From: an uncultured Mycoplasmatota bacterium
GTDB lineage: Bacteria; Bacillota_I; Bacilli_A; RF39; UBA660
DNA length: 39,036 nucleotides
NCBI GenBank assembly: GCA_948466735.1
Contig: CAOKBR010000005.1
Span: forward strand, 1-39,036
Direction of reading: 5' to 3'
Shown: positions 1,158 to 30,150 of the stretch, piece by piece
Layout: every line of letters begins with the position of its first letter
How positions within the stretch are numbered: the first letter of the stretch is position 1
Notes under the pieces: generated by a model
The model's database searches: none
Told to the model about the DNA's origin: nothing
Seen by the model: only the letters and a program-made list of their open reading frames with translations
Position numbers and translations under genes: made by a program

Positions 1158-3812
1158 TTAAATATTTTCTTCTCGAATGGCATCTAAGATGTTTTCCTTT
1201 TTAATTTTATTTGCTGCATACATCATGGTAATAAAGGTTAATAAGAATACAGATACAATAGTGATTATCATTTCTCTTTTTGGTACCATGAATTCAAATT
1301 CTACTACGCCATAGATATTCCTATAGATCAAATACATGACGCCAATGGCAACAGGAATGCCATAAATTAAAGCTTTTAGACCATAAAGAATACTCTCATA
1401 AAATAACATTTTATTAAATCCTTTTGGCGTTAGACCTGTGCTTCTTAAAATCGCAAATTCACGTCTTCTTAAAGCCATCGAAGTATTAATTGTATTAAAG
1501 ACACTAGTAACACCAATTAAAGTTACCAAAGCAATAAAACCATATAGGAACATACCAATGACTAAAATACCATTTTTTTGCATTTGCATATTCGCAGTAA
1601 TGTCAGAAGCATAAGCAAATATATCTTGTCTACTAAGATCTTCTGGTAATAAATCATCAATGTTTTTATACACTTTATCATGCTCTTTTGCTTGAATCAT
1701 AATGTCTAGTCCATTAGAATAATAAACTTCTCCTTTATCTAAGTCTACATACGTACGAAGTTTTTGCAGCATTTGGTTAGAGATAATCGCATATTTTGCC
1801 GTTGATATACTAATAGATAACATCTCAGGTTCAACATCACTAACAACTGCATCAAATTTAGCTAAAGAAATATCCTTGTCTAAATCAGTGTCATGGTTTA
1901 ATTTAAATAATTCTAATGTGATTTTTGAAACATCATTTTTAATGTACTTAAACTCTTTTACTTTTTGTTTTTCATAATCACGGTTTACCATTTTATTAAT
2001 GATAATTGGTTTAATTTCATCAGTGTTAAAGTCTTGATAAGATAAATTAGCTTTCTTTAAATACTCTTGATAACTAGTATCATCTAAGGAAATAAAGAAC
2101 ATATCTGCTAAACCATATGTATTATCATACTCTAGTCCTTCATCTTTTAGATAATCAAAATAAGCTTTGCTAAAAATATCATCTTTTGTCTTTACTCGAA
2201 ATAAAGTATCTATTTCACTAAGGGTGTAGTTATCAATTCCATCTAATTTTAAAATTGACTCATAAATCTTTTTGTATTCTTCCATCGCATTGATTAGTCC
2301 ACTATCTCCACTTGGATTATAAAATCTAACAATGATATCATAATTTTTATGTTCTACAAAAGTCGTTGTTCCTTTCATTCCTAGTTGCAAAATACTAGAA
2401 AATGATAAGAATAAGACAATACTAATAAATAAAGATAAAATTGTAATTCGATATTTTTTCTTATTTCTTTTCATGTTTTTTCTAGCGATTTCTGCTTCAA
2501 TTCCTAAAATTTTAGCAAATATTGGTCGTGATTTTATCCCATGTTTTGGCATTTTAATATCATCATTTAAGCGAATAGCTTCAATCGGAGAAATTTTTGC
2601 TGCTTTTCTAGCAGGTAAATAAGCAGATACAAAAATGGTAATCATCATAAATAAAATAGGAATAATGATTAAAATAGGATATAATGATATTTCAAGTGGA
2701 AAACCAAAATAATTTGGTAGTAAATGATTGGTAATTTTTAAAACAATGTCAATTCCTAATATACCTGAAATTAATCCAATAGGAATACCAACAATCGATA
2801 CTAGGAACGCTTCAAAAAACACCGTTTTCTTAAGTTGTCTAGAAGTTGCGCCAATACTTGAGAATAGCCCAAATTGTTTTTTTCGTTCCATTACTGATAT
2901 AGCAAATGAGTTATAAATCACAATTATACATCCAATAGATACTAGCGCTAAAACAATAGAGACTAATCCACCAATCATATTATTGATATTTTGATAAGAA
3001 CTTGCTCCATTAAATGCTAATATTCCCTCATTGTAATTTATCTTTTTATACCCATCTTCTTCGCTAAAACCCAAAGCTTGTGTTAATTCGTTTGTCAATA
3101 AATGCGCATCTTTTACCTTTTTATAAGTAATTTTAGATACTACTTTACTATTATAATCTAAATCTTTTTCATCAATAGGGGTAATGACTGTATATCCTGG
3201 AGCAGTATACCCCTCATCAAAAGGTCGTTCAATTATTCCAACAATGGTATATTCTTTGGTAAGTTCTATTTGTAATTTTTCATCACCAAAATAAGCATCA
3301 TCTTGAGTTAAAAATTCCTCTTCTTCTTGGTAATGGCGACTTCCGATATCTAGAGTAATTTTATCTCCAATATGATAATTTACTTTCCCGTTGGTAGCAA
3401 TATGACTAGAAATTAAAATTTCATTACTGTTTTTTGGTAAGCGTCCTTCTTTTAAGGTCACCACTTTTTCCAAATAATAATCATTTACTTCTTTGATATA
3501 TAAATAAGGCTTATATTCATTTTCTCCCTTTTCTAATCGTGAATAACCTAAGCCGTACTCTAAAGTAGCATTTTTAATCTTCGCATTATTTTTAATGTAT
3601 TTATAATCTAGATAAGAATAGTCTTTAATTTCTACATGATGGGCTCCACTATTTTTAATGACTTCTTTTAAAATTAATTCACGAAAACTTGAGGCAATGG
3701 TACCAATTCCTACCATTAAAGCTGTTGATAAAATAATACCAATAATGGTGACAATGGTTCTTTTTTTATTCATTTTTAAATGTTTAATGGTTAATTTATT
3801 TAAAATATTCAT
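1158..3812 (-). CDS. ABC transporter permease with two FtsX domains
   Basis: Integral membrane subunit of an ABC exporter-like complex of the MacB/FtsX superfamily. The 884 residues show the duplicated plan: TM1 about residues 20-40, a large extracellular domain (about 45-280), three TMs (about 283-305, 330-355, 378-400), then a second TM (about 455-475), a second extracellular domain (about 480-735) and three more TMs (about 740-765, 795-815, 845-868). Basic segments such as RKAAKISPIEAIR follow the first half, as usual in FtsX proteins. It starts 1 nt after the ATPase stop codon, so the two are translationally coupled. Together with the upstream two-component system it probably works in peptide or envelope-stress resistance (inference). 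It does not have the 10-TM, single-large-loop plan of BceB. Confidence 0.9.
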   Translation of the reverse strand: MNILNKLTIKHLKMNKKRTIVTIIGIILSTALMVGIGTIASSFRELILKEVIKNSGAHHVEIKDYSYLDYKYIKNNAKIKNATLEYGLGYSRLEKGENEYKPYLYIKEVNDYYLEKVVTLKEGRLPKNSNEILISSHIATNGKVNYHIGDKITLDIGSRHYQEEEEFLTQDDAYFGDEKLQIELTKEYTIVGIIERPFDEGYTAPGYTVITPIDEKDLDYNSKVVSKITYKKVKDAHLLTNELTQALGFSEEDGYKKINYNEGILAFNGASSYQNINNMIGGLVSIVLALVSIGCIIVIYNSFAISVMERKKQFGLFSSIGATSRQLKKTVFFEAFLVSIVGIPIGLISGILGIDIVLKITNHLLPNYFGFPLEISLYPILIIIPILFMMITIFVSAYLPARKAAKISPIEAIRLNDDIKMPKHGIKSRPIFAKILGIEAEIARKNMKRNKKKYRITILSLFISIVLFLSFSSILQLGMKGTTTFVEHKNYDIIVRFYNPSGDSGLINAMEEYKKIYESILKLDGIDNYTLSEIDTLFRVKTKDDIFSKAYFDYLKDEGLEYDNTYGLADMFFISLDDTSYQEYLKKANLSYQDFNTDEIKPIIINKMVNRDYEKQKVKEFKYIKNDVSKITLELFKLNHDTDLDKDISLAKFDAVVSDVEPEMLSISISTAKYAIISNQMLQKLRTYVDLDKGEVYYSNGLDIMIQAKEHDKVYKNIDDLLPEDLSRQDIFAYASDITANMQMQKNGILVIGMFLYGFIALVTLIGVTSVFNTINTSMALRRREFAILRSTGLTPKGFNKMLFYESILYGLKALIYGIPVAIGVMYLIYRNIYGVVEFEFMVPKREMIITIVSVFLLTFITMMYAANKIKKENILDAIREENI

Positions 3813-18495: not shown

Positions 18496-20139
18496 TTATT
18501 CGGTATCAGTTACAATAATATCACCATCACTATGAGGAATAACTCCTGTGACAAATGTAGTACCGCTACTATAACTTGTTATTACCTGCCACTCAAATTC
18601 TCTTCCTGTTTTATTAATAATCTTTTCTAAATTTGGATTTGAAGAAGAGTCCTTATATAATGCCCTATCCCCAATCGTTGTTACACTATTAGGTATTTCT
18701 ACACTTGTTAAGTCATTATAACGAAATGCAGAATCTCCAATTGTTGTTACACTATCAGGAATTGTTACACTTGTTAATTGATTATAAGAAAATGCATAAC
18801 CTCCTATTGTTGTTACACTATTTCCTATTGTTACACTTGTTAATTGATTAGAAGAAAATGCATATTCTCCAATTGTTGTTACACTATTTGGTATTGTTAC
18901 GCTCGTTAATTGATTATAACGAAATGCCCTTTCACCAATATTTTTTATACTGTTGCCAAGTGAGAGCATTGTTAAATTGTTTTTATCAAATGCACCTAGC
19001 TCAATGGTTGTTACGCTATTTGGGATTATAACCTCGTTTAACCCTAAGTTAAAAAATGCCTGTTCATTAATATTAACTACTCCATCAGGTATTACAACAC
19101 GATCACGACGCGCTCCTCCATAACTAACTAAATTAGTATAATCAATACTTCCATCGCTGTTACGTTGATATATAAACGCATCTTCATCTAGTAATTGATT
19201 ATTATTAAACGCTACTATTCCTATGTTATTAACTTTTTTTCCTATTGTTACGCTTGTTAATTGATTATTTAAAAATGCATAATCTCCTATTGTTGTTACA
19301 CTATCAGGAATAACAACAGATGTTAAACCCTTACTGCTAAAAGGACCCATGACTCTACTAACAGAAGATGCTTTTCCAATGTTAACAACATCTACTCCGT
19401 CAATTTGACGAGGAATGATAACATCCTTTGGACATTCATTACCACTTGCATCTATTTCCTGGTAATTGGTTATCGTTCCTGTTGTTTCATCAAACACAAA
19501 GCATGAACTTTCCGTTGGCTCATTTACAAAAACTCCTTGTTTAGCATACACATTGATTTTTATCCCATATTTCTTTTGAACATCTGTAATTTCTGTGTTT
19601 TCATCTACCCACATGCGTAAACGATAATTGTGGATTGTCACTCCTTCATTTGAAAATGTTCCAGTATCTAGTATCATGCTTCCAAGGGGTGATCCTATTT
19701 CACTTACTTCAACTCTTGGAATAAAATTCGTTGGTGCCATGATTTCAGTATATGCGGTTTCTGGATCAATTGCCCTTTCTAAATATAGTTTCACTTCATT
19801 ATCTAATAAAGGTTCCATATCGGTGATGGGTATTTTTACTGCTGTTACTTCATAAGTGATTACTGTATCCTTTCCTAGTGTTGCACTTACGGTAAAATCA
19901 AAAGTATTGTTTTCACCTGTTAACATTTTTCCTGTTTCATCTGATATAGGAAGGGCATCTTCTAAAATGATTCCTGTTTTTCCTTCCGTATACGTTAACA
20001 TTACTGTTCCTGTTTCAATTGTATTTTCTACTGTTCCAACTTTTACAAAAGTAAATGCTGCATATGTTACTCCTACTGTTACACATATTACTGACAATAA
20101 TAAAATTACTGTAATTACTATTTTCTTCTTCTCTTTCAT
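18496..20139 (-). CDS. TasA-like N-terminus plus BspA-type leucine-rich repeat surface protein
   Basis: 547 residues. Signal/TM about 7-27 ends in TYAAF, the YAxF pattern of SipW-dependent TasA/camelysin-type proteins. Residues about 30-215 form a beta-rich domain (IETGTVMLTYTEG...). A Cys-containing linker (CFVFDETTG ... NECPKDVIIP) leads into BspA/TpLRR repeats (about 235-500) of the form LTSVTIPNSVTTIGEYAF, with unusually uniform 22-residue units near the end. The C-terminus has no LPXTG, GW or TM anchor. Probably exported and adhesive or ligand-binding (family knowledge for BspA). It carries its own -10/-35 and, further upstream, one copy of the repeated leader element. The start ATG follows AAAGTAGGGAAAAAG. 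Confidence 0.9.
   Translation of the reverse strand: MKEKKKIVITVILLLSVICVTVGVTYAAFTFVKVGTVENTIETGTVMLTYTEGKTGIILEDALPISDETGKMLTGENNTFDFTVSATLGKDTVITYEVTAVKIPITDMEPLLDNEVKLYLERAIDPETAYTEIMAPTNFIPRVEVSEIGSPLGSMILDTGTFSNEGVTIHNYRLRMWVDENTEITDVQKKYGIKINVYAKQGVFVNEPTESSCFVFDETTGTITNYQEIDASGNECPKDVIIPRQIDGVDVVNIGKASSVSRVMGPFSSKGLTSVVIPDSVTTIGDYAFLNNQLTSVTIGKKVNNIGIVAFNNNQLLDEDAFIYQRNSDGSIDYTNLVSYGGARRDRVVIPDGVVNINEQAFFNLGLNEVIIPNSVTTIELGAFDKNNLTMLSLGNSIKNIGERAFRYNQLTSVTIPNSVTTIGEYAFSSNQLTSVTIGNSVTTIGGYAFSYNQLTSVTIPDSVTTIGDSAFRYNDLTSVEIPNSVTTIGDRALYKDSSSNPNLEKIINKTGREFEWQVITSYSSGTTFVTGVIPHSDGDIIVTDTE
18671..18934 (-). repeat. Four tandem 66-bp repeats encoding 22-residue LRR units
   Basis: Near-identical units begin at 18671, 18737, 18803 and 18869 (each starts CC[AT]AT[CT]GTTGTTAC on plus), with a degenerate unit from 18935. 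A further similar unit occurs near 19233-19310. Exact 66-bp spacing keeps the frame, so unit number could change by recombination or slippage without breaking the gene. Confidence 0.9.
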
Positions 20140-21956: not shown

Positions 21957-24008
21957 TTATTTATCAATCATAATCACTGCCCTACCACCTTCTTGTGAAG
22001 AAGTGTTATAACTATTAACAAGACCAGTAAAATTGATATTCCATGTACTTGTTGCTCTAGTAGAATCAGCTGATAACGTCCAATAACTTGTATTTTTACT
22101 CGTTCCAGCATCTACTGTTCCTCCAAATCCTGTTGAATTATATAAATAATTATACATCCAAATAGGACAAGATTGTTGTGTCGTTTTACATCCTAAAGCA
22201 ATGGCCTCTTGCATGGAAATCATTCTTGCTTTAGCTGTTCTACTAGGTAGAGTATAAGTATTTTTCGTACAAGAAGTAGATGTACATCCAGTGTAATAAT
22301 TAGATTTAAAGGTTGTTGTTCCTAAAGTGTAAGTTTGATCTAGTACATTACTCCAGTTACTTGTAGCACTTTCTAAAATAGGAATAATTGTTGTAGGTCC
22401 ATAAGTATTATTGTTACTACCTTGGTACCATGCCGTTGGGTCAATTGTGTTTTCTCTTTGTTGTAGCGTTAATGTATTTCCATTATCCGAAATCACGAAA
22501 AAATAGAAGATTTCATCATCGTTTACCTTATATTTTACAATAGTGCCTTCTTTATAGTTGTTTGGTTTTTCCACTAATTCAACACAAGTAGACTCTTCTC
22601 CAGTTACACAAAAAGTGGAAGAATTTAATGTTTCATCATACTGATAAACGTTTAAAATATTTTCATTAGGCAAAGGTTGTAGAAAAAATGGGTTATCCTT
22701 ACTTCCTGTACCTGATATAGCTTTAATATCTTTATCTAAATATAAAGTGGGAAAAATTTTATGATTCGTAGAACTACCTCTAGCTTCATCAATATTACCT
22801 GCTCCAACGTAAAAATAATTATATAAATTTCTATTCAAGCCGTCTACTTGTTGTCTTTCATAACTTGAAATATTTAAAAGCCAAGCATCTTGTAACATAG
22901 GATAAGCCCATGAATTAGCACCATTACATAAACTTAAATCATTTAGACAAGAGTCTCCACTTGGATAAGTATATGCGTAATCTGATGGATAAGGTAGTTC
23001 TACTTTGCTAATTTGATTAATCTCAGTGGCACTATCAAAATCACTTGCTGCAATCGTACTAGTTCCTCGCTCTTCTTTAAATAATGTAGTAGCGTCCACA
23101 TCTCCATTGATTACCGCTGTATAAAACAGGGCATCTCCTATTTGGCTTCTAGCACTAGGTGTTAATCCTACATTAGAATACTTTCCTGTTTTATTATAAA
23201 AATCCGTTAAGTTTTGAGGATGATATGAAGTTTCAATACTTTGGCTTCTTACTAATTTAACTCTTTTTTCTTTAACATTTGTACCATTATCTATTGTATA
23301 TGACCCAAATATTCTCCATGTTTCACATGTTGTTTTATCATAAGGAGAACTACAGTTAAAGTAGACATAATTATTCACATCGCGTCCTTGATAAAGGCTA
23401 AGCCATCGTTCTGCAACTTTCCAAGTAGACTGTTGCGAATTAGAAGGAGCTTGCATTTGTACTAATCCATTTTCTCGACCATGCTTTTGGGTAATAATTT
23501 CAGCCAAGTTTAAATTTTGATACTTTGCAATTACTTTTCCCATTGGATGCATGGACTTTCCCCCTGTTGATAAGCCACTATCAATACTAAGAGCGAGTGT
23601 TTTCTCTGTTGTATTGTAATTTGTCATTTTAATCTTATATGTTTGTTTTTCATTAGTATCAAGAATTACTCCCTTATTATTTGGTGGAATATCTGCACCC
23701 ATTTGTTCGATATAACCATATGCCACACCCGTCGGCTCATCAATATAATATAAAATAAATTGTCCTGCCGCGTCATTTAAGTTCTCTAAGGTAACATTAA
23801 ACGTTTTCGTCTGTCCTGCACCTATTGTTAAGTATTGGGTTTCTACACCATCTACCTTTAACGTCGGTTCCATCGTTCCTACTTTAATTGTAATATTTCC
23901 TTTTTCCATCCTATCAATTTCAAAGATAGCATAAGACTGATAAAGTAAAACAACCCCTGTAAATAATAGAGTAAGACAAATTATAAACCACACTTTTTTA
24001 TTTTTCAT
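21957..24008 (-). CDS. Exported protein: TasA/camelysin-like N-terminus and two C-terminal modules
   Basis: 683 residues. Signal/TM about 5-25 ending SYAIF, then a beta domain (about 30-160; VGTMEPTLKVDG, VTLENLN). A middle module (about 190-450) contains W-R-I-F-G, paired cysteines and ends SGTGSKDNPFFLQ. The last module (about 465-683) has CVTGEEST-CVEL, YKVND, FFVISDNGNTLTLQQREN, a Cys-rich loop, ARMISMQEA, SYWTLSADS and GGRAVIMIDK. The last module recurs in the interrupted gene at 33781-34911 and as a remnant at 10289-10390. It resembles DUF6273/formylglycine-enzyme-like or C-lectin-like folds (inference, not a search). The start is set at MKNKKVW, with AAAAGGAAG before it. Leader copy B lies directly upstream with no space for another promoter. 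Confidence 0.85.
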   Translation of the reverse strand: MKNKKVWFIICLTLLFTGVVLLYQSYAIFEIDRMEKGNITIKVGTMEPTLKVDGVETQYLTIGAGQTKTFNVTLENLNDAAGQFILYYIDEPTGVAYGYIEQMGADIPPNNKGVILDTNEKQTYKIKMTNYNTTEKTLALSIDSGLSTGGKSMHPMGKVIAKYQNLNLAEIITQKHGRENGLVQMQAPSNSQQSTWKVAERWLSLYQGRDVNNYVYFNCSSPYDKTTCETWRIFGSYTIDNGTNVKEKRVKLVRSQSIETSYHPQNLTDFYNKTGKYSNVGLTPSARSQIGDALFYTAVINGDVDATTLFKEERGTSTIAASDFDSATEINQISKVELPYPSDYAYTYPSGDSCLNDLSLCNGANSWAYPMLQDAWLLNISSYERQQVDGLNRNLYNYFYVGAGNIDEARGSSTNHKIFPTLYLDKDIKAISGTGSKDNPFFLQPLPNENILNVYQYDETLNSSTFCVTGEESTCVELVEKPNNYKEGTIVKYKVNDDEIFYFFVISDNGNTLTLQQRENTIDPTAWYQGSNNNTYGPTTIIPILESATSNWSNVLDQTYTLGTTTFKSNYYTGCTSTSCTKNTYTLPSRTAKARMISMQEAIALGCKTTQQSCPIWMYNYLYNSTGFGGTVDAGTSKNTSYWTLSADSTRATSTWNINFTGLVNSYNTSSQEGGRAVIMIDK

Positions 24009-24031
24009 TTTTTCTTCCTTTTCTACCACAG

Positions 24032-24245: not shown

Positions 24246-25206
24246 TTAGGAGTTTTCTTTTAAATATTTTTCTACTTCTTCTTTAGATAATCCTGTAATT
24301 TTAACAATGGACTCAACATCATATTGCAAACTCATATATTTTATGATTTCTTTTTGTCCTTCCATTTTTCCTTGCTCAATACCTTGCTCAATACCTTGTT
24401 CAAGTCCTTCCTTTAAACCATCTTCTTTAGCATCAATAATTACTTGTTCTCTCCATGCTAATTCCTTATCGTATGATCCTCCAAATGATTCATCATCTGT
24501 TACCTCAATTGACTCATTAATATACTCATTCATGATTTCATCTCCTTTTCCTAGTTCTAAGGAAGTAGGAATGTCTGTTTCTACTAGTGCTAATAAATAT
24601 CGCTCTACTTCACTTAATTCCTCTTTATTGTACCATTTCTTTTTCAAATTTGGTATATATATTTCTATAAATATCAGTTTATCATTATAGATTTCTCCTT
24701 GACTATCTTGATCACAATGAATATTAAATACTTCATCCTTTCCCTCAAAAGCAAAGTTGTTGATTGATATTTGTATCACTTGTGTATATATGTAGTCTTC
24801 TCCACTTTTATTTTTCTTAGAAAACAACCGATAAAGCATATTCTTGATTTCTCTCCATGATATATGATTGACTATTGTTATTAATCTCTAAATTAAGGTA
24901 TGTTCCATTAATCACTGCTACATAATCAGCCCGTTGTCCTTTATCGTTTTCTTTTTCTTTATCTAGTTCGTTTTTTCCTAGCTTTAATTTTTTTAATAAA
25001 GTTTCATACTTTACATCAAGAAAATAGGAAAACAACTTACATGAATACTTTAAGCGATTTTCATTCATCATCATCGTTTTAAACATACTATCCCACAAAA
25101 GTGAAATTTTCATTCCCTCCTTTCTCTCTTCAAATTTAATTCGATTTTCTTTATCAATCGTTCGCTCATAAATATATGGCTTATCTAACCCTTTTATTTT
25201 GATCAT
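24246..25206 (-). pseudogene. Frameshifted Rpn/PD-(D/E)XK nuclease family transposase-like gene
   Basis: Two overlapping frames together make one family member. The first part (24817-25206) has LLWDSMFKTMM...LFSYFLD and the nuclease core RADYVAVINGTYLNLEINN (Asp ... Glu-x-Asn) and stops after ERNQEYALSVVF. The second (24246-24839) resumes with RLFSKKNKSGEDY, where the family normally continues in one frame, and ends with the characteristic EQGIEQGIEQGK repeat and a C-terminal helix pair. The join is near 24825-24835; one extra base explains it. Rpn proteins are annotated as recombination-promoting nucleases or transposase-like and are mobile in many gut bacteria. Ribosome site AAAGGAAAG precedes the ATG at 25206, so the break is probably recent. 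Confidence 0.8.
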
Positions 25207-25331: not shown

Positions 25332-25393
25332 AAAAAAGACCTAAATTTTTTCTTTTCCTCTAAGAGGAAAATTTATTAATCTAAGTCCTTTTC
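25332..25393 (-). terminator. Long hairpin terminator after the 1525-residue surface protein
   Basis: Outer arms about 25332-25348 and 25378-25393 pair with one bulge and some G-T pairs; a perfect inner stem TTTTCCTC/GAGGAAAA lies at 25353-25371. On the minus strand the structure ends in TCTTTTTT. Between it and the Rpn-like gene (25207-25331) I see nothing else. Confidence 0.8.
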
Positions 25394-25431: not shown

Positions 25432-28400
25432 TTAAATTATTGGAATTTCTTCTTCTTTTCTTTTTCTTTTTTGTTTTCTTCTATCAATTAAGCTAGCAAC
25501 AAAGAAAACTGATCCAATTAAGAAAATAGTTCCTCCAATGATATACCACAAATAATTTTCTTCTTCTGTTTTCTCATCTTGCTTATAATATACAACATAT
25601 TTTCCTAACGCTTTTACTTCTAGCTCAATCTCTTGATTATTGTTCTTTTTATATTTTAGCTTTCTTACATCGTTCTTTACTACTTCATAAATTCCTAAAA
25701 ATTCTTTTTCCTTATCTAAAGGGATAATTAGCTTCATCGAAGTATTTACGTTTACCTTTTGATGATTCTCATTTTCTAAATATAACTCAATATAACGACT
25801 ATTTTTTCCAAATTGACGTTCTAGCTCATTAGTTAAGATAAACTTGCTTCCTTTTAATGTAACATCATCTTTGAGCGTGCTTGATGGCATCACTAATTTA
25901 ATTCCATCAAAAGTAAAACTTTTATCCTTTATCGGTGGCTTTTCTTCTTCACCAGGTTTAGACTCATCTGGAGTCGTTGGCGTTGATGGTTCACTAGGCT
26001 TTTCTTCTGGAGTCGTTGGCGGATTTTGATTTCCCTGATTTCCTTTATTAATCCACGTTACACTTGCTGTTACCACACCAACATTTCCAAGCTTATCTTG
26101 ATAAACAAAGTCAAAACTTCCATTTTCGTTAAATACATAAGTATTTGAACCATCGTTATTCACTATTTCAATATACTCATCACTTGTTATCGTTGCTACA
26201 ACAGAACCTTTAGTACTCGTTGTAATATCATAACTAACACTAGCATTAGGAGCTACTTTATCAATCCAGTTTACATATGCGCTACGACTAGACATATTTC
26301 CTGCTTCATCAACGTATTCAAATGTAAATTCGCCATTTTCACTAAATGTATAAATCGTACTACCATTATTATTTAACACCGTAACATTTTCTTTATTAAA
26401 AATAATTTCAACAACCACATCTTTATTGGTTAATTCTGTTGTACTATAACTAATTGAACCTCTTGGTTTTTCCTTATCAATCCAACTAACACTAGCAGTT
26501 GCCGTTGCCCTATTTCCTGCTTTATCCATAAATTCAAAAGTAAATTCACCATTATCTAAGAAATAATAAGTTAAAGGATCAGCATTCGGATTATCTGAAT
26601 TATAATCACCATTGTTTAAAACAATGATTTCCTCATCAGGTATCAACGTTGCTGTAACTTCCCTATTTGTAGGTGATTTAGTATTATAAACAATACTAGC
26701 CGTTGGTGCTATTTTATCAATCCAGTTTACCTTAGCAATTGCTTGTCCAGTTGATCCTGTTTCCTCATTTACAAATTCAAAAGTAAATTCACCATTTTCT
26801 GTAAATACATAAGTATCACTTCCGTTATTATTCGTAATCTTAATTTTAGTACTAGGATTTACTAAACGAGCAACCACATTACCATTAGTAGGCTCAACAG
26901 TATCATAAGCAACACCTGCCGTTGGATGAGGATTTTGGGTTAAATCTTGATAGAAGTTAAAATACCTTGCTGCAATAAAGTTTCCACCGCCGGCACTAGA
27001 TGTTCTTGTTCCTACTATTTTTATATATTGAACAAGTGGATGACCATCAAACTCAACCGTTTTTGTCGTTTCATTATTTGCCCATACAACCGTTGTTAAA
27101 TCAAAGAAATTTTCACCATCTAAACTTCCTAAAATTTGTCCGTTTAAAATTTTACCATTGCCACCTCCAGCAGGAACATAATCCATAGCAGATAGACTAA
27201 TTTCCCTATCAAATTTTATGGTAATATAACGCTCTTGATCATTTCCATTCCAATTCGAATGCCACCTAGTATTATAATTTCCATCGATCGCATAAGTTGC
27301 ATTTCCCTGATGAGCAGTTGCTTGGGTCGATACAGAATGAATAGATAAATGAGAAACTGGAATATATTTCCTTGTATCAGGTTGATTGTCTTCAGTAAAA
27401 TTAAATGTTAACACATTACTTGCTAGTTTAACTCCTGTAGGAGCCACCCTAATTTGTAGCGTTTTATCTCCTGTATTATCAGGTGAACTAACAGCATACG
27501 AAGTCCAAGGATCGTCCTCACTATTTCGCCATTCATGGGTTAAGTTAACACCAATTACCCGATTTTCTAAATCGTTTCTAAAATAACTACTCGCTTGAAT
27601 TACATTTTCCAAAATATCAATTTTTAAAATATTTTGATCATTGTAAGGGGCTCCTACAATGTGAATATAAATATCATTTTCTGCAGTAATGCTTGCTAAT
27701 TCTCTGTTCGTCAAAGGATGTTTATGTTCTTCTTCTCCAGTAAAAGATACCTCTTTCCATGTATTTTTTCCATCTAAGCTATAATCAAATCGAACTCCTG
27801 AACCATTAAAACGTTCTCCTAAAACAATTTTTCCATGATTTTCTCCATCAAAAGAAAATGTTGCCAAAGTAGTATCAATTATTCCCAATAAATAATTTGC
27901 TAATCCTCTAGTAACAGACGGTTGTAAGACATCACTTCCATTATAATTTTTACCCTTAGTTAAAGTATCTTTTAATAAAAGTGTATAGTTAAATTGATAT
28001 GCAGTGCTTTGGAAATGAGGGGCAAGTAATGCCATTAAATTATTATATGGGAAAGGATATTCTAATAAAGCCTCACTAAGTTTTATTGCTAATTGATAGT
28101 AATCCTCTTCAGTCTTTGTTGAATCGTTATTATATAAAACGATTAAGTTATACCAAGCATCTATATTAAAATCCAATTTTTCTAAAGCACTCCACAAATA
28201 TTCTTCTTGTTTACTAGGCTCATTTTGATATAAATTAGATAACATAACTATCTTTTGGGATTGTTGGTATTGATCAAAACGGTTAATCGCTTCTTGTGCC
28301 ATAATAATATAAGGTACGTTATATCCTTTTACATAGCGACGATCGTTTCCCCATCCAAGAGGCATTCTTTCTCCTTTTTCAGATAAAGCCCAGCCACTGA

Positions 28401-30009
28401 CATCATTATCTATTCCCCAATATCCTAAATTATCAGCAGTTTTAGAATAATAAATAATTGCGGCGTGACCTGGTTGCCCAATAACAGCAGCAGGAATTCC
28501 GTGAACAGTACGAATATTAGAGCCAGTCTTAGAAATACCACCACATACTGCTCCTGTTCCAAACTCATTTCTAAAGTTCATCCATACTTTATAAACTTTG
28601 TGATCTCCTTCACTATAAGTTACACCGTATTTAGAAAATATACCATCATATAAATTATCCCAATATTCTTTTCTATTTGGATCATGAAATACTGCATTAC
28701 CGTAATTTGGCCAAACATAAGCCATATAAGGATGAGGTGTCAAATAAGTCCATGCTTGATTAGGATGAGCTTCAATTTGTTTTTGGGTATAGGCATTTAA
28801 CCAAATAATCGACTCATCATCAATGATATTATTCATGATTACACGTAATTCTTCTACGGTATAACTTTCAAACCATTTATTAATATCAATAGTACTATTG
28901 ACAATAAACTTTCCCTCATCATAAAGCCACTTAAAAATTCGATATCTCTCCACAGAGTCTGACTGATTCGTAGGCTCACTTGGTTGCATCCATAAAGAAA
29001 CATTAGAAGAATGGGTTAAAGATAAAGCAATTGCCATTCTTTTATATAAATCCCCTATATTATTTCCATACTTTGATACTTGATCAACAGTAAAATCATC
29101 TTTATAAGAAATATACAAACGAACCAGTTGTTTTAAAGAACTAATATATCCTCCCGTCGGTGCTCCTCCAAGAATATATAATCGTAAATTTTCAACATTA
29201 GTCATTAACCAACGTAAAGTATTTTCATTATTTTGATCAATAAGAGCAAATTCTCTTAATAATTCATATCCAACATTTTTTACCAATTCTCTTTGTAATA
29301 ATACTAGTTCTTGTTGATTCATTTGTTCATCTAAAGAACTATTTTTTAAAATTGAATCATATTCTTCAATTGTCTTAATAAAATCAAATTGCTTATCTTG
29401 TGGATTTTCTACATATCCTTCCTTATATAATTTAGCATTTCCATATGCACAATGATCAGAAGTGGCACTACCATATTGAAGACAATACAATTTAATATAC
29501 TTTTTTCCTTTAATATCTACATTGATATATTCTGCTTCTGTATCTCCTTTTTTTATAGGAGGAGATACTAAGGTATGTAAATCCCAATTTTCTCCATCCG
29601 TTGATGTTGATATAGCAAACTTAACACCATCACTATTATTTCTACTTGCATCCACTCCATAATAAGTAGAAAAATAATCATAAGAATAATTAGAAATATC
29701 AAATACTACTGTACTTGTAGCATGGGCGCTAATTCCTTTTAGAAATAGTTTTTTCTCTCCATTTACAATTAATGAGATAAGTCCGTTATTATATCGTGTT
29801 TCTAAGTTAGAATCCATGGTCAAATTTCCCCAACCAACTTGACTTTGTTCTTTAATATAAGGAATATCCGATAAATAGACAAAATCCTTTTCTATAGCAG
29901 CAACATCAAGTGCACTACTTTTCTGATTAACGATTACAAGGCACACCACAAATAAAATTACTACACCAAATATCCAATACAAATATCTTTTTCCTATTTT
30001 TGCTTTCAT
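25432..30009 (-). CDS. Giant membrane-anchored surface protein: NPCBM, transglutaminase-like, F5/8C and Ig-like repeats
   Basis: 1525 residues. Signal/TM about 11-27; NPCBM carbohydrate-binding domain about 35-198 (FLKGISAHATSTVVFDIS). A large helical and catalytic region (about 215-650) has AVCGGISKTG (Cys about 489), QPGHAAIIYY (His about 515) and WGIDND (Asp 534 or 536), a Cys-His-Asp order like transglutaminase/papain-like enzymes. F5/8 type C lectin-like domain about 885-1025 (YAIDGNYNTRWHS). Four Ig-like repeats about 1028-1325. Pro/Glu-rich linker (PTTPEEKPSEPSTPTTP), a further domain, TM about 1483-1507 and a Lys/Arg-rich tail; no LPXTG. A glycan- or host-surface-binding enzyme is likely; substrate unknown. 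GAGGG lies 5 nt before the ATG. Monocistronic with its own promoter and terminator. Confidence 0.9.
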   Translation of the reverse strand: MKAKIGKRYLYWIFGVVILFVVCLVIVNQKSSALDVAAIEKDFVYLSDIPYIKEQSQVGWGNLTMDSNLETRYNNGLISLIVNGEKKLFLKGISAHATSTVVFDISNYSYDYFSTYYGVDASRNNSDGVKFAISTSTDGENWDLHTLVSPPIKKGDTEAEYINVDIKGKKYIKLYCLQYGSATSDHCAYGNAKLYKEGYVENPQDKQFDFIKTIEEYDSILKNSSLDEQMNQQELVLLQRELVKNVGYELLREFALIDQNNENTLRWLMTNVENLRLYILGGAPTGGYISSLKQLVRLYISYKDDFTVDQVSKYGNNIGDLYKRMAIALSLTHSSNVSLWMQPSEPTNQSDSVERYRIFKWLYDEGKFIVNSTIDINKWFESYTVEELRVIMNNIIDDESIIWLNAYTQKQIEAHPNQAWTYLTPHPYMAYVWPNYGNAVFHDPNRKEYWDNLYDGIFSKYGVTYSEGDHKVYKVWMNFRNEFGTGAVCGGISKTGSNIRTVHGIPAAVIGQPGHAAIIYYSKTADNLGYWGIDNDVSGWALSEKGERMPLGWGNDRRYVKGYNVPYIIMAQEAINRFDQYQQSQKIVMLSNLYQNEPSKQEEYLWSALEKLDFNIDAWYNLIVLYNNDSTKTEEDYYQLAIKLSEALLEYPFPYNNLMALLAPHFQSTAYQFNYTLLLKDTLTKGKNYNGSDVLQPSVTRGLANYLLGIIDTTLATFSFDGENHGKIVLGERFNGSGVRFDYSLDGKNTWKEVSFTGEEEHKHPLTNRELASITAENDIYIHIVGAPYNDQNILKIDILENVIQASSYFRNDLENRVIGVNLTHEWRNSEDDPWTSYAVSSPDNTGDKTLQIRVAPTGVKLASNVLTFNFTEDNQPDTRKYIPVSHLSIHSVSTQATAHQGNATYAIDGNYNTRWHSNWNGNDQERYITIKFDREISLSAMDYVPAGGGNGKILNGQILGSLDGENFFDLTTVVWANNETTKTVEFDGHPLVQYIKIVGTRTSSAGGGNFIAARYFNFYQDLTQNPHPTAGVAYDTVEPTNGNVVARLVNPSTKIKITNNNGSDTYVFTENGEFTFEFVNEETGSTGQAIAKVNWIDKIAPTASIVYNTKSPTNREVTATLIPDEEIIVLNNGDYNSDNPNADPLTYYFLDNGEFTFEFMDKAGNRATATASVSWIDKEKPRGSISYSTTELTNKDVVVEIIFNKENVTVLNNNGSTIYTFSENGEFTFEYVDEAGNMSSRSAYVNWIDKVAPNASVSYDITTSTKGSVVATITSDEYIEIVNNDGSNTYVFNENGSFDFVYQDKLGNVGVVTASVTWINKGNQGNQNPPTTPEEKPSEPSTPTTPDESKPGEEEKPPIKDKSFTFDGIKLVMPSSTLKDDVTLKGSKFILTNELERQFGKNSRYIELYLENENHQKVNVNTSMKLIIPLDKEKEFLGIYEVVKNDVRKLKYKKNNNQEIELEVKALGKYVVYYKQDEKTEEENYLWYIIGGTIFLIGSVFFVASLIDRRKQKRKRKEEEIPII
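26040..26940 (-). repeat. Four diverged repeats encoding about 75-80-residue Ig-like units
   Basis: The plus strand shows ATCAATCCA or a near variant followed by a conserved block near 26046, 26258, 26488 and 26727. At protein level each unit runs A-x-x-x-Y, T-N-x-x-V-x-A/V-x-I/L, x-N-N-x-G-S-x-x-Y-x-F, ENGEF-x-FE and V-x-WIDK. Diverged enough to be old duplications. Confidence 0.8.
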
Positions 30010-30055: not shown

Positions 30056-30084
30056 ATTTTACTATAAATTAGCGAACGTGTAAA
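30056..30084 (-). promoter_or_regulatory. Promoter of the giant surface protein gene
   Basis: Minus strand: -35 TTTACA (30079-30084), 17-nt spacer, -10 TAAAAT (30056-30061). Confidence 0.75.
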
Positions 30085-30124: not shown

Positions 30125-30150
30125 TAAAAAAAAGCACAAATCATGTGCCT
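30125..30150 (-). terminator. Terminator after the M29 aminopeptidase
   Basis: GCACA/TGTGC hairpin (arms around 30134-30138 and 30144-30148); the minus strand continues with eight Ts. It starts at the gene's stop codon. Confidence 0.85.

Follow-up and report, generated by a model that had tools for sequence, protein, structure and literature searches.

A bacterial surface protein that frames a candidate transglutaminase-like cysteine enzyme, possibly a glycoprotein peptidase, with sugar-binding modules

A 1525-residue protein encoded by an uncultured Mycoplasmatota bacterium holds, between two sugar-binding modules, a region with an invariant cysteine and histidine which, by sequence comparison, is a real conserved family. 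Taking sequence comparisons and structural models together, we see about an even chance that this protein is an extracellular cysteine hydrolase, anchored in the membrane and targeted to host glycans, which probably acts as a glycoprotein peptidase. The architecture of the protein, the conservation and predicted topology of its core and the breadth of the family were computed and are presented below.

Gene and domain architecture

The source genome comprises 1.06 Mb in 58 contigs and is ~93% complete. The protein is encoded by one minus-strand gene with an ATG start, running from 30009 to 25432 of the window, i.e., the whole analyzed stretch of 39,036 nucleotides of contig CAOKBR010000005.1. 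The following features were assigned (window coordinates):

25432..30009, minus strand: whole gene, 1525 aa (open reading frame and translation; RBS-like AGAGGG 5′ of the ATG)
30132..30150, minus strand: hairpin resembling a terminator, assigned to the M29 peptidase gene upstream; it lies between that gene and the one for the 1525-residue protein
30056..30084, minus strand: promoter-like site TTTACA-17-TAAAAT on the 5′ side of the gene (10/12 consensus positions; consensus match only)
29908..30009, minus strand: hydrophobic N-terminus, aa 1-34, either a signal peptide or a signal anchor (read from the sequence)
29428..29880, minus strand: NPCBM/CBM51 glycan-binding module, aa 44-194 (Pfam PF08305, E 3e-21; nearest solved sequence 7js4_A, E 1.3e-16)
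28810..29382, minus strand: conserved all-helical domain, aa ~210-400 (alignment and AlphaFold model)
28210..28809, minus strand: probable transglutaminase/papain-like cysteine enzyme core, aa ~401-600 (conservation, core model, Foldseek, profile comparison)
28543..28545, minus strand: Cys489, proposed nucleophile (107/107; helix N-terminus in the model)
28465..28467, minus strand: His515, proposed base, within the invariant Q512..H515 (107/107; strand start in the model)
28405..28407, minus strand: Asn535, proposed third residue (104/107)
27874..28209, minus strand: TPR-like helical part, aa ~601-712 (alignment profile of the region against consensus TPR proteins, best E 2e-6)
27340..27867, minus strand: two conserved beta-rich modules, aa ~715-890 (FSF(D/S)G and ENR motifs kept in relatives)
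26950..27336, minus strand: F5/8C (CBM32) module, aa ~892-1020 (Pfam PF00754, E 5e-20, match aa 894-1005; nearest solved sequences are glycosidase CBM32s)
26044..26925, minus strand: four Ig-like repeats, aa ~1029-1322 (repeat pattern; Big_3_2 weak, E 0.0027)
25915..26043, minus strand: Pro-rich linker, aa ~1323-1365 (sequence)
25570..25914, minus strand: C-terminal beta-rich domain, aa ~1366-1480 (sequence reading, without Pfam assignment; similar stretch in relatives L018, L020 and L024)
25435..25557, minus strand: transmembrane segment and basic tail, aa ~1485-1525 (sequence; without LPXTG)
25353..25371, no strand assigned: palindromic terminator-like hairpin 3′ of the gene (reported by the scan on the plus strand)

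The order given in an initial annotation of this DNA, namely hydrophobic N-terminus, NPCBM module, enzyme region, F5/8C module, four Ig-like repeats, Pro-rich linker and C-terminal transmembrane segment with basic tail, was confirmed by Pfam searches and by the sequence. Both binding modules exceeded their Pfam cut-offs (76.2 vs. 23.9 bits for NPCBM; 72.2 vs. 28.2 bits for F5/8C). All parts of the earlier list are present, but it had omitted the C-terminal beta-rich domain and the two beta-rich modules, for which the Pfam search gave no significant match. The enzyme region, which had been taken as one unit, is likewise real and conserved, but consists of the helical domain (~210-400), the core (~400-600) and the TPR-like part (~600-710). 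Except for TPR-type repeats, the ~520 residues between the lectin modules yielded no match to Pfam, NCBIfam, PHROGs or PDB sequences. The Ig-like repeats each close with WI[DN]K and end near residues 1099, 1179, 1251 and 1322; an 810-residue frame rich in the same type of repeat is found on another contig of this genome (C14; L233 2280-4709).

As the terminator-like hairpin of the M29 gene is followed by a promoter-like site and by AGAGGG before the ATG, the gene appears to stand alone; these promoter, RBS and terminator calls are consensus matches and not proof. A shared operon with the M29 gene was rejected because the hairpin lies between both genes. Directly 3′ of the gene, a weak match to the PDDEXK_2 transposase family is located at 24817-25206 of the window. 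Two further probable surface proteins are encoded nearby (18496-20139 and 21957-24029), this pair being a BspA-type leucine-rich-repeat protein and a 690-residue protein with a hydrophobic N-terminus.

Conservation and predicted fold of the enzyme core

Conservation was counted over 107 distinct aligned enzyme cores, all of which contain Trp476, Cys489, Gln512, His515 and Trp531. The initial annotation had named Cys489, His515 and Asp534/536 as the catalytic residues, and all four are found at the positions claimed. A role of the aspartates as third catalytic residue is, however, less well supported, as Asp534 is kept in 86 and Asp536 in 87 cores, compared with 104 cores for Asn535, which lies four positions C-terminal to Trp531 and is replaced by Tyr in three cores. 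Mycoplasma-like relatives (TGA = Trp) also keep the Cys, the His and Asn535, but carry Asn, Lys or Gln at the position of Asp536. Asn535 is therefore, as far as conservation can tell, most likely the third catalytic residue; asparagine is accepted in this role among papain-like enzymes (PMC10318531). A relative from Enterococcus has Tyr at this position when aligned by eye on its GW, its profile match being too short for inclusion in the count. Weak NCBIfam matches to haemolysin models were seen in two of 67 family members.

The first AlphaFold model (aa 194-743, 10 sequences) had a pLDDT of 83. As helical repeats dominated a Foldseek search with this 550-residue model and made it uninformative, the trimmed core was used instead. 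The model of this core (aa 376-600, 67 sequences) reached a pLDDT of 94.1 and a pTM of 0.89. Therein, a helix begins at Cys489, a strand spans 507-512, the following strand (515-523) begins at His515, and a further strand (529-534) lies just before Asn535. The cysteine is thereby placed at a helix start and the histidine where the following hairpin begins, and these secondary-structure positions are compatible with a triad.

The initial annotation had proposed a comparison of the structure with transglutaminase and papain folds. Foldseek ranks 1-13 of the core against the PDB comprised TglA, TgpA, TG2, TG3, a putative protease, Rad4 and PNGase (2f4m, 2f4o); these leading matches belong nearly all to the transglutaminase superfamily, yet with a best E of 0.24 none of them is individually significant. 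Using hhalign, the core profile was compared with a Transglut_core profile of proteins from related genomes, which yielded a score of 31.4 (41 columns, probability 34%) and matched the Cys and the His of one profile to those of the other. Control scores did not exceed 18.7 for 60 column shuffles and 13.0 for reversed profiles. NLPC_P60 (19.6) and C39_2 (11.8) were rejected as source of the fold, as their scores are at or near noise. None of 67 members gave a hit to Transglut_core (PF01841); the best score of any member, 13.2 bits vs. a cut-off of 23, was that of the Enterococcus relative, where the weak match spans the Cys. As model topology, Foldseek ranks and profile score agree, although each is weak alone, the core is probably a transglutaminase-like member of the papain-like superfamily. 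The transglutaminase- or cysteine-peptidase-like core suggested earlier is thus supported by the invariant Cys and His, the helix-strand-strand order, the Foldseek leaders and the paired profile columns.

With the transglutaminase-like superfamily (PF01841; TgpA, TglA and the putative protease BDI_1141) the core shares the order of Cys-helix, strand and His-hairpin. It differs from it in that the family stays below every sequence cut-off, in that the likely third residue is Asn and not Asp, and in that a helical N-terminal and a TPR-like C-terminal flank as well as the NPCBM/F5/8C frame are added.

Binding modules, anchors and spread of the family

The nearest solved sequences of the NPCBM module are 7js4, presumably a Zmp enzyme of C. 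perfringens, and a blood-group-cleaving endo-beta-galactosidase. Those of the F5/8C module are CBM32s of hyaluronidase, NagJ and sialidase, and the alignment retains the WHSxW motif and the Asn of NGxI, positions which presumably contact the sugar. The resulting CBM51/CBM32 frame is also that of the M60 and M60-like mucinases (PF13402) of mucosal bacteria, which occasionally end with dockerin or LPXTG (PMC3267712, PMC13003899). This likeness concerns the way of working and not membership: M60 enzymes are zinc-dependent HEXXH metallopeptidases, whereas the protein studied here would be a cysteine enzyme of unrelated fold, in which neither a PF13402 match nor an HEXXH motif was found. An M60 peptidase with fn3, F5/8C and internal dockerin is encoded elsewhere in the source genome (contig C3 3575-8725, L244). 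The next gene after it (2751-3587) encodes a small membrane-anchored protein without Pfam match, which might be a cohesin-like partner of the M60 dockerin; a Pfam cohesin was not found in the source genome. Across relatives, M60 and the enzyme co-occur in three genomes vs. ~1.7 expected, which is not convincing as an association.

Relatives of the enzyme region were found in 10 of 60 related genomes, and relatives of the core in 16 of 395 genomes of the class and 13 of 392 genomes of the phylum. In bacterial genome contigs 231 stretches encode a relative, 80 of which were kept. Phages and viral contigs contained none, and a phage or viral-contig origin of the enzyme was rejected for this reason. 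The relatives are labeled as uncultured Bacilli, Clostridia and Tenericutes, many of them from gut-type samples, with the gut habitat being our reading of the sample names. All six relatives examined by Pfam scan retain the arrangement NPCBM-enzyme-F5/8C, which was also read in translations of mycoplasma-like relatives. As the enzyme region and this frame recur in many genomes, they are more than chance. One or two relatives are present in mycoplasma-like genomes (L224, L225, L226, L227; TGA = Trp), and some of these proteins have N-termini resembling those of lipoproteins. Enzyme paralogues lie in adjacent tandem in L094, L099 and L102.

The C-terminal ends of the relatives differ, being transmembrane, LPXTG-like (in a few cases) or dockerin; Dockerin_1 was found in three of the six Pfam-scanned relatives, while end types outside these six were assigned by simple rules. 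On a tree of 75 cores, anchor type needs eight changes, compared with a possible minimum of two. Anchoring without LPXTG, which the initial annotation had stressed, therefore holds for the 1525-residue protein but is not a defining trait of its relatives. Cohesins occur in all ten tested genomes with a dockerin-tailed copy and also in two genomes with other anchors. In G360 and G401, a cohesin gene lies directly 3′ of the gene for the dockerin-tailed enzyme (L245 5614-6564; G360 C5 75952-76260), an adjacency which suggests a two-gene surface complex. A comparable combination of signal peptide, transglutaminase-like domain and dockerin is listed as uncharacterised in Ruminococcus flavefaciens FD-1 (PMC2930009); compared by description alone, these proteins differ in that an NPCBM/F5/8C frame is unreported there.

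The Enterococcus plasmid protein WP_103301357.1 (“putative mucin/carbohydrate-binding domain”) has the same core (~26% identity over ~275 aa, E 6e-8) with the motif GGVCG...VGQPGHC. It differs in carrying two Mucin_bdg (PF03272) modules in place of NPCBM and F5/8C, and no anchor was seen. This version sits on large, mostly conjugative Enterococcus plasmids (L200 4291-6720, L201 4297-6720, L202 8291-10720).

Proposed function, alternatives and implications

The nearest neighbors of both binding modules, the conservation of the frame across different anchors, the mucin-binding modules of the Enterococcus relative and the M60 peptidase of the same genome together argue, with moderate strength, for a glycoprotein as substrate, and the enzyme may act on mucin. 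Against a glycoprotein-specific reading, CBM51 and CBM32 occur in glycosidases too, and F5/8C modules can bind other ligands. In the proposed mechanism, CBM51 and CBM32 would bind galactose/GalNAc-type sugars of host glycoproteins and hold the substrate, while Cys489, which His515 would activate and Asn535 orient, would attack an amide carbonyl, most likely that of a peptide bond in the glycoprotein backbone. The acyl-enzyme formed would then be hydrolyzed, and the Ig-like stalk and transmembrane tail would hold enzyme and products near the cell. Peptide-bond cleavage appears most likely because the frame is that of M60 mucinases and because AMUC_1438, an orphan enzyme with an NPCBM module, is a Tn-dependent O-glycopeptidase (PMC9513282); by this analogy, peptidase chemistry is favored weakly to moderately over another amide chemistry.

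A different amide bond would be cleaved if the protein were a secreted peptide:N-glycanase-like amidase, whose Cys-His-Asn/Asp core frees N-glycans from Asn and leaves the chain uncut. The glycan-binding frame would fit such an enzyme, the Foldseek matches include PNGase and the related Rad4, and NGLY1, which likewise acts on glycoproteins, combines the transglutaminase fold with a Cys-His-Asp triad (PMC9102325). Yet the PNGase matches are weak and no better than those of TgpA or TG2, NGLY1 is a cytosolic protein with a zinc-binding motif and not a bacterial surface protein with CBMs, the core sequence lacks zinc CxxC pairs of the PNGase type, and the Mucin_bdg modules of the Enterococcus relative point to O-glycosylated proteins, which makes this reading improbable. 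We give similarly little credence to a true transglutaminase or ligase, i.e., a covalent adhesin cross-linking the cell or its neighbors to host glycoproteins. TglA, TG2 and TG3 are among the leading Foldseek matches and an adhesive role would be in keeping with membrane, LPXTG-like or dockerin anchors, but the likely third residue is Asn where Asp is usual in transglutaminases, the fold superfamily also includes proteases, amidases and deubiquitinases (PMC10318531), and invariant chemistry with freely swapped anchors fits a hydrolase at least equally well.

Adhesion could also be served by an inactive core that is a mere scaffold between lectin modules, which would agree with the many binding modules and with the few members differing in the third residue. 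This is quite unlikely, since Cys489, Gln512, His515 and Trp531 are invariant down to distant identities, which would hardly be expected without catalytic constraint. Least of all do we expect an NlpC/P60- or C39-like cell-wall enzyme directed at the cell's own peptidoglycan or at leader peptides. These are papain-like folds as well, but their profile scores fall below that of Transglut_core, the family is kept in mycoplasma-like genomes, which are presumably wall-less, and the binding modules are of host-glycan types.

Returning to the glycoprotein peptidase, neither the fold superfamily nor the binding modules are new. What does appear to be new is the family itself, together with its Cys-His-Asn signature and its occurrence in a CBM51/CBM32 frame, as a literature search of open-access scope found no publication on this enzyme family. 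The characterized mucinases compiled in a recent publication fall into the metallopeptidase families M11, M26, M60, M66 and M72 plus G9 (PMC13003899); in an early survey, CBM51 was seen in no MEROPS peptidase (PMC3267712). We tentatively suggest, while considering it rather less probable than its opposite, that the protein represents a founding family of cysteine-dependent instead of metal-dependent glycoprotein peptidases or mucinases, in which an enzyme of transglutaminase fold evolved a CBM51/CBM32 frame like that of the M60 mucinases. Its members would be anchored to the membrane, to the wall or by cohesin-dockerin pairs, and its carriers would be gut Bacilli and Clostridia, mycoplasma-like bacteria and Enterococcus plasmids. 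As no Pfam or NCBIfam model exists for the enzyme domain, genes of this family are recognized by their binding modules only. If the proposal is true, a conserved cysteine enzyme would provide bacteria with ~1-Mb genomes with a second chemistry for the attack on host glycoproteins, one that chelators would leave unaffected and thiol inhibitors could block.
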